A DNA stretch of 32,758 bases. It comes from Burkholderiaceae bacterium (GTDB lineage Bacteria > Pseudomonadota > Gammaproteobacteria > Burkholderiales > Burkholderiaceae_B). The notes beneath the pieces were generated by a model. It searched no databases, was not told where the DNA came from, and saw only the letters and a program-made list of their open reading frames with translations. The position numbers and the translations under genes were made by a program. The stretch spans positions 1 to 32,758 of the forward strand of contig JARXAG010000137.1 in NCBI GenBank assembly GCA_029866055.1, given 5' to 3'. Shown one piece after another: positions 30,836 through 32,375 of the stretch. Position 1 is the stretch's first letter. The number at the start of each line of letters is the position of its first letter.

Positions 30836-31093
30836 ATGCGTCAATCTTCTGCACAGCAAGCCCCACGCGGCCAATTTGCTTCATCTTCTACACAGCAAAC
30901 CCCACGCGGCCAATTTGCCTCATCTTCTTCACAGCAAGCCCCACGTGCCCCGTTTGCCCGATCTTTCGCAACGGCAGCCGCGCGCAATGATTCACCAAGC
31001 GTAAAAGGGATGTTGTCTGACATCCTCTTGCTATCTTTTTGGGTTGCCATGATCCCAGCTGTCCTCTTGATCGGTAACGCAGCCGGTTATTAA
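30836..31093 (+). CDS. Putative SOS-induced small repeat/membrane protein
   Basis: The 85-residue product is not a family I recognise. AAAGGAG lies 7 bases before the ATG, an excellent ribosome site. Residues 4-42 are three 13-residue repeats (SSxQQxPRGQFAS; the third reads SSSQQAPRAPFAR), polar with one or two Arg each. After ARSFATAAARNDSPSVKG comes a single hydrophobic helix (LLLSFWVAMIPAVLLIGNAA, about residues 64-83) ending GY at the C-terminus. This suggests an inner-membrane anchor with a basic, disordered N-terminal part, probably cytoplasmic. Two LexA boxes overlap its promoter, so induction by DNA damage is expected. By analogy with SidA, YneA or TisB it could halt division or alter membrane potential; this is inference. 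It is divergent from the ThDP enzyme and convergent with the transporter gene. Confidence 0.8.
   Translation: MRQSSAQQAPRGQFASSSTQQTPRGQFASSSSQQAPRAPFARSFATAAARNDSPSVKGMLSDILLLSFWVAMIPAVLLIGNAAGY
30845..30961 (+). repeat. Three in-frame 39-bp tandem repeats
   Basis: The units 30845-30883, 30884-30922 and 30923-30961 begin TCTTCT-x-CACAGCAAxCCCCAC. Copies 1 and 2 are almost identical, while copy 3 diverges at its 3' half. The unit length keeps frame and encodes 13 residues, so copy number could vary without breaking the gene. Confidence 0.9.
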
Positions 31094-31108: not shown

Positions 31109-31981
31109 TTAGCTGCTTGCCAGCAACACCACGCCTACGGCGATACCACCGCAGCCTACCAAGCGCCCCCAGCCGACAGGCTCACGTAGCAAGTAAAGTC
31201 CGGCAAGTGTCACCAACAACATTGACATTTCACGCGCGGGTGCCACTAAGCTAACTGGGGCGCCATCGCGTAACGCGTACAGCACCAAAATATATCCCAT
31301 TGGGGATAACACCCCGATTGTCCACGCCAACGGCCAATATCCTTTCATCGCTGCCCAGGCCTGCCGGGGCTGCCTTGCTGTGTGTGGCAACAGTAGCAAG
31401 GTGCGGGTCGCGCAGGTGGCCCAATCGTACACAACGGGGGCAATCAAAAGAGTTTTGACGCCATAGGCATCCACCAAGGTATAGGCGGCGATCAACGCGC
31501 CAATCAAGGCTCCCCAACGGACTCCTACCATCGCTTCTGGTTGCAGCAGACGACGAAGCTGGCCTTGTGTCGCAATCAGCAACACTCCCGCCACCACGCA
31601 CAGCATCCCGCTGATGCCACGTATCGTTGCAGGCTCGTCTAGCAGCAACAGAGCCCCTACAGTCGCAAGCAGCGGCCCTGTGCCGCGCGCGATCGGATAC
31701 ACGACTGATAAGTCGGCCAACTGGTAACCACGCTGCAGGCACAGGCTGTAGACTAGGTGCACGGTACCCGACAGCGCGATACAGCCAACGATTGGCCAAC
31801 TCCACTCGTTTTGCTCAAAGACCAACACCCAGAGCACCCAGGGGGCGTACAAAATGGTGCAGCACAGGCCGTAGGCAAATACAAAGGTCGGTCCAACGTG
31901 TGCCGCGCGTTTGGCAAGCAGGTTCCACGAGGCATGCGCAACCGCCGCCGCAATGACAAAGAGTAGGGCGGTAGAACTCAT
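31109..31981 (-). CDS. EamA/DMT-superfamily transporter
   Basis: The 290-residue protein is hydrophobic throughout, with about ten transmembrane segments in two homologous EamA halves. The first half opens ALLFVIAAAVAHASWNLLAK and ends LLLLDEPATIRGISGMLCVV; the second ends LLVTLAGLYLLREPVGWGRL and CGGIAVGVVLLA. The DEPAT and REPVG loops before the last helices are the usual EamA motif. It probably exports or imports a small metabolite across the inner membrane; the substrate is unknown. The ATG overlaps the TAA of an upstream repeat-encoded frame (TAATG), and no Shine-Dalgarno is seen. It is convergent with the small SOS-type gene. Confidence 0.9.
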   Translation of the reverse strand: MSSTALLFVIAAAVAHASWNLLAKRAAHVGPTFVFAYGLCCTILYAPWVLWVLVFEQNEWSWPIVGCIALSGTVHLVYSLCLQRGYQLADLSVVYPIARGTGPLLATVGALLLLDEPATIRGISGMLCVVAGVLLIATQGQLRRLLQPEAMVGVRWGALIGALIAAYTLVDAYGVKTLLIAPVVYDWATCATRTLLLLPHTARQPRQAWAAMKGYWPLAWTIGVLSPMGYILVLYALRDGAPVSLVAPAREMSMLLVTLAGLYLLREPVGWGRLVGCGGIAVGVVLLASS

Positions 31982-31986
31982 TAAAA

Positions 31987-32118
31987 TTTAGGATTCAAGG
32001 TAGGGCTCAGGCTAGAGTTCAAACTAGGATTCAACGTATTACCCAACCTAAGCTCCAAACTGGACTTCAACACAGGGCTCACACTAAGGTTCAGTCTTGG
32101 CTTTAGCCTAAGCTTTGT
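31987..32118. repeat. Eleven degenerate 12-bp tandem repeats upstream of eamA
   Basis: The plus strand divides without gaps into eleven 12-mers with consensus close to ACTAGGATTCAA, e.g. TTTAGGATTCAA, GCTAGAGTTCAA, ACTAGGATTCAA, CCTAAGCTCCAA, ACTGGACTTCAA, ACTAAGGTTCAG. Degeneracy suggests age. On the minus strand the array is an open frame of four-residue repeats (LNPS LNSS LSPT LNPK F) ending TAATG on the eamA start codon. It has no ATG and no ribosome site, so I class it as a repeat and not as a gene. Confidence 0.8.
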
Positions 32119-32375
32119 CCGGGGCAGTTCTTGTCACAAACTAGTCACAGCTAGCTTTGTAACATCAGGCGAGCCAAGCTACTGGCGTATCAACCCAAAA
32201 ATGTTGTAGAATCAATGGCTTTGTTAACGCATCCTCTGCCCGGTAACGGCCCCTGAATAGGTCAGGCGCACGTCAAACAATACCGATCCAGGCTTGATTT
32301 GTTGTCAGCTTTTTGTAGCCGGCACCAATGACTGCACTGGTGAAACCACCGAGAGCAAGATGACTTGGAGTTCAT
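32119..32375. other. rplS promoter and leader region
   Basis: No credible coding frame is present. The left part contains TAGAAT at 32207-32212 (in GTTGTAGAAT), the likely -10 for rplS, with a weak -35. The resulting leader of about 155 nt contains a short CCTGA/TCAGG hairpin near 32250-32266 and a CACCA/TGGTG dyad near 32325-32342. A leader of this length before a ribosomal protein gene could serve autoregulation, but no known motif is recognised. Confidence 0.45.
32207..32212 (+). promoter_or_regulatory. Probable rplS -10 element
   Basis: TAGAAT preceded by GT, as before gyrA and etfB, 164 nt upstream of the rplS start. The -35 region (about 32184-32189) is not close to TTGACA. Confidence 0.45.

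Follow-up and report, generated by a model that had tools for sequence, protein, structure and literature searches.

A degenerate 12-bp tandem array between divergent eamA and rplS genes of Zwartia-type bacteria, probably a decaying intergenic minisatellite

Introduction

Bacterial intergenic minisatellites, including the VNTR loci used in MLVA typing, are head-to-tail arrays of 10-60-bp units that lie between genes, change by whole units and are restricted to particular clades. The array described here resembles them in each of these respects, but differs from typical loci in that its units are strongly decayed, with an identity of 0.57 at a lag of 12 bp, and that it is nearly missed by standard repeat finders. 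Phase-variable simple-sequence repeats are a second known class with a likeness to it, as both are tandem repeats adjoining a gene start. However, those repeats are short and near-perfect, forming long tracts of near-identical units, whereas the 12-bp units of this array are degenerate, and no switch of frame or promoter spacing is evident. The literature retrieved on degenerate intergenic arrays consisted of general tandem-repeat papers only.

In this study, we report an analysis of the array in a 32,758-nucleotide contig (JARXAG010000137.1, assembly GCA_029866055.1; hereafter, the window) from a freshwater genome of the Zwartia type (Alcaligenaceae), where it occupies part of the gap between the divergently transcribed genes eamA and rplS (Table 1). 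A preliminary description of the window had noted eleven gapless 12-mers filling the upstream region of eamA, and had considered a relic of a coding repeat, a spacing device and multiple binding sites as explanations. We assign a probability of about 0.82 to another reading, namely that the array is a clade-specific, decaying intergenic minisatellite, neutral or nearly so and with no coding role.

Results and Discussion

The array and its genomic setting

Each of the eleven 12-mers shares 6-12 of its 12 positions with ACTAGGATTCAA, compared with 0-4 for the flanking 12-mers. The column information at period 12 amounts to 120.8 bits, about 13 standard deviations above the value for 5000 dinucleotide shuffles (26.6 +/- 7.0, maximum 59.4), and the lag-12 identity is the highest among periods of 5-30 in the window. 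The gapless repeat is thereby confirmed, and the concern that its periodicity might be no better than chance does not apply. Tandem Repeats Finder (TRF) reports the first 3.8 copies only, with a score of 43 that falls under the usual cut-off of 50, so routine annotation would miss the array.

The statement that the array fills the region upstream of eamA stands in part: it abuts the gene, but positions 32119-32375 are taken up by other elements, namely a conserved spacer and the probable promoter and leader of rplS. The probable -10 element of rplS is conserved throughout the genus and in Achromobacter and Bordetella, where the eamA-rplS pair is kept as well. Within the spacer, conserved TGTCACAAA and inverted TTTGTAACA boxes are found, which are possible candidates for the eamA promoter or a regulator site. 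Searches for consensus sigma-70 promoters and terminators found none in the region, and the eamA promoter was not placed.

Table 1. Features of the eamA-rplS region, in window coordinates
Feature	Position	Strand	Details
eamA-family transporter gene	31109..31981	-	290 aa; Pfam PF00892, E 9.3e-17
Mechanical ORF through the repeats	31981..32082	-	33 aa, GTG start; TAA overlaps the eamA start; judged no gene
Degenerate 12-bp tandem array	31987..32118	no strand	11 units, consensus NCTAGGNTTCAA
eamA-proximal unit TTTAGGATTCAA	31987..31998	no strand	Better conserved among the carriers than any other unit; possible seed
Conserved spacer	32119..32206	no strand	TGTYACAAA-like boxes; may contain the eamA promoter
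TAGAAT, probable -10 element of rplS	32207..32212	+	Putative promoter
rplS 5' leader	32230..32375	+	CATCCTCTGC at 32230-32239, GATG at 32359-32362, covarying helix 32241-32244 / 32348-32351; not part of the array
rplS, ribosomal protein L19	32376..32756	+	Pfam PF01245, E 1e-43

Distribution and copy number

The array is carried by eight species including that of the window, which form a single clade with 100/100 support in the eamA tree; the sister of this clade, L009 (placement support 84/85), is without it. Relatives with a named record are Zwartia hollandica and Zwartia vadi, with eamA 80% and 78% identical, and freshwater metagenome-assembled genomes (MAGs). Using a unit chain model, for which 300 random stretches gave a null maximum of 13.8, we obtained scores of 118 for the window, 104 for L003, 125 for L004, 90 for L007, 67.5 for L005, 65 for L006, 32 for L008 and 24 for L010. 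Ten other members of the genus scored at most 7.8 and have no array by this measure, although relics may be understated in distant members because the window array served to train the model. These non-carriers retain the eamA-rplS pair. The preliminary description had also raised the possibility that close relatives with unchanged eamA expression lack the array altogether; its absence is observed, but only outside the eight-species clade.

Compared between species, with one genome for each, the number of units is 11 in the window and 11, 14, 10, about 8-10, 6-7 and 4-5 in the relatives. Two of the differences are clean indels, of exactly one 12-bp unit missing in L007 and of a 37-bp duplication, three units plus one base, in L004. 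Since the array is lineage-specific and has gained and lost whole units, its earlier labelling as a degenerate minisatellite was apt. In the aligned upstream sequences, the eamA-proximal unit is nearly invariant across the carriers, and the sister group L011-L013 has one similar stretch, GGAACCCAAGC, at the same place; the array may have grown from an eamA-proximal seed sequence.

Four freshwater-type MAGs in our set (L062, L071, L076 and L079) have Bordetella parapertussis as their record title, yet in eamA they are scattered among the Zwartia-type genomes; the names are apparently wrong.

Rate of divergence

In the closest species, the array decays at a roughly neutral rate. Its divergence matches that of the eamA 4-fold sites in three close pairs (22/132 vs 28/174, or 0.167 vs 0.161, p = 1.0; 17/132 vs 27/172, 0.129 vs 0.157, p = 0.52; and 9/132 vs 14/179, 0.068 vs 0.078, p = 0.83). 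Between the window and L003, the array is about five times as diverged as the rplS promoter and leader, which carry 7 changes in 192 positions (p = 9e-5). Two of the divergence results count against neutrality. One is the near invariance of the eamA-proximal unit, and the other is the comparison of L004 with the more distant L007, where the divergence of the array falls clearly below that of 4-fold sites (16/120 vs 73/161, p = 7e-9). The flanks of the array are similarly low in divergence from L007 (8/65 and 19/188), and constraint on the whole gap, homogenisation of units, the choice of alignment or gene exchange are possible causes.

The repeat frame on the minus strand

The preliminary description had pointed to an open frame on the minus strand in which leucine recurs every fourth residue (Leu-x-x-x), and which ends in TAATG at the eamA start. 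Both the frame and the overlap of its TAA with the eamA ATG (31983-31979) were found as described. It could be proposed that this frame is, or was, translated as a leader peptide coupled to eamA through the TAATG/ATGA junction, as it is open across the array in L002, L003, L007, L008 and L010 with its stop overlapping the eamA start, and substitutions are slightly, though not significantly, in excess at third codon positions (16, against 9 at second and 10 at first positions; p = 0.29). In all six species pairs, however, the nonsynonymous changes are as numerous as expected when the same substitutions are placed at random (p 0.08-0.76), that is, with no excess of synonymous changes, and the frame is shifted by 13-bp units in L004 and in L005/L006. 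The consensus unit carries TGA or TAG in both other minus-strand frames, so the remaining frame is the only one of the three able to be open, and the stop-start overlap is automatic because eamA begins with ATGA in all carriers. The TAATG itself is not conserved, being due to a single substitution in the species of the window, and a conserved start codon or ribosome site is absent. We therefore reject coding, past or present, for the array, and regard a coupled leader peptide as extremely improbable. The composition of the unit is enough by itself to produce an open repeat frame with a tidy overlap of stop and start.

Binding sites, spacing and structure

Eleven similar 12-mers within a divergent promoter region, with a core TAGG-TTCA that is still recognisable, might be taken as targets of a protein that binds DNA or RNA and controls eamA or rplS. 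Against this, the core has changed nearly as often as the rest of the unit (17/70 vs 18/50 substitutions, p = 0.22), close relatives with the same genes are missing the array, and the unit is not arrayed elsewhere in the genome. With up to three mismatches, a two-unit pattern matched the genome 22 times, including five times within the array, and its reversed control matched 12 times; the matches outside the array were only scattered. The earlier suggestion of multiple binding sites thus gains no clear support, and we consider it very unlikely. With two mismatches, the hits in the window genome are confined to the array.

A dispersed repeat family was rejected as a separate candidate, since, away from the eamA-rplS locus, matches to the two-unit pattern were no more than scattered, also in a genus-wide search. 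The array unit had no match in phages or plasmids.

Another possibility is that eamA expression is tuned by the array, as a spacer or as a 5' leader, with the copy number altering the promoter-start distance or the leader structure slowly, between lineages. In favour of this are the position of the array right beside the eamA start, the spread of its length among the species (about 4 to 14 units), the absence of a Shine-Dalgarno-like sequence before eamA in the array species, and the arrays that arose independently in this gap in other genera (see below). Outgroups with 0 units nevertheless retain the gene pair, and no promoter could be placed. The decay of the units makes frequent slippage unlikely, even though copy number still differs between species. 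The folding of the array RNA is inconsistent between species, with minus-strand z-scores from -2.9 to +0.7, which also argues against this reading. We regard tuning of eamA as unlikely, and both the spacing and the binding-site roles are at present unsupported.

RNA structure in the array was likewise rejected in its own right, as the predicted fold is different in each species. An Rfam search of the region returned no match even at E <= 5.

Recurrent arrays in the eamA-rplS gap

Tandem intergenic arrays at the same genomic position are found in Bordetella genomosp. 1 (13 bp x 6.3), Achromobacter sp. Root83 (15 bp x 5) and Bordetella genomosp. 5 (40 bp x 4), corresponding to the gaps L110, L120 and L124. 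They are like the window array in position and arrangement but differ from it in their units, and because the 13-, 40- and 15-bp units are unrelated, these arrays are independent in origin. A 127-kb sample of the window's genome contained a second degenerate intergenic array, of 17 bp x 7 (L173:2109-2227; G000 contig C78), flanked by genes for an MlaD-like protein and an ABC-auxiliary lipoprotein (ABC_trans_aux). Together with the arrays of the other genera, it indicates that degenerate intergenic arrays are a recurrent and ordinary feature here.

The independent arrays could mean that the length of the gap matters. In its strongest form, the argument would be that the eamA-rplS gap of Alcaligenaceae regrows unrelated arrays because selection favours extra length between the rplS promoter and the eamA start, for example to keep the strong transcription of the L19 gene away from eamA, so that the array acts as a sequence-independent insulator or spacer. 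We consider such an insulator quite improbable; if it were real, it would imply selection for intergenic length regardless of sequence.

Origin and decay of the array

For the preferred reading, a decaying minisatellite, we propose the following scenario. In the common ancestor of the eight Zwartia-type species, a short sequence immediately before the eamA start would have undergone tandem duplication, then spread to about 4-14 units by replication slippage or unequal recombination, and subsequently decayed by point mutation. Its location would be a dispensable spacer between the divergent genes, and any effect on eamA, via spacing or leader length, would probably be small. The array, its restriction to one clade, the gain and loss of whole units and the match with 4-fold sites in the closest species are observed, and slippage as the mechanism, the seed sequence and near-neutrality are what we infer. 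Taken alone, the array matters little, adding a single locus to a common class; its interest is as a fairly clean case in which a minisatellite can be followed along a species tree from birth through growth to decay.

Neighbouring elements

The 5' leader of rplS, which lies beside the array, is a candidate L19 autoregulatory leader, and its helix is more likely than the array to be a regulatory element. A survey of leaders of ribosomal genes published in 2020 mentioned those of L19 for Firmicutes and Flavobacteria, and neither rplS nor betaproteobacteria (PMC7247131). In the window and 69 related leaders, the CATCCTCTGC and GATG ends are invariant, the latter adjoining the Shine-Dalgarno sequence; being invariant, the outer helix is uninformative with respect to covariation. 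The inner helix changes from CCGGT/ACCG in Zwartia to TTGCGG/CCGCAA in Achromobacter and Bordetella. The rows compared were selected by hand and joined over an interior of variable length. Its four inner pairs are paired in 80% of cases among 33 distinct rows, compared with 31-41% when slid. For 18 rows, pairing reached 83.3% of cells vs 75.5 +/- 1.9 when shuffled, and changes on both sides were seen in 18 cells vs 8.9 +/- 2.3, although a slide of +3 gives a similar covariation score. The single-sequence fold of the leader was no more stable than its shuffles, and comparison with Rfam 15 gave no match. A restrictive spacing pattern had 0 hits in 120 genomes of the order and also 0 in the window's own genome, and says little on distribution because the interior of the window's leader exceeds the length that the pattern allowed.

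On the other side of eamA, an 85-aa ORF without a match in Pfam (30836-31093, plus strand) contains a 39-bp x 2.6 tandem repeat at 30844-30945; its product would have QQAPRGQFASSS-like repeats and a hydrophobic C-terminal part.
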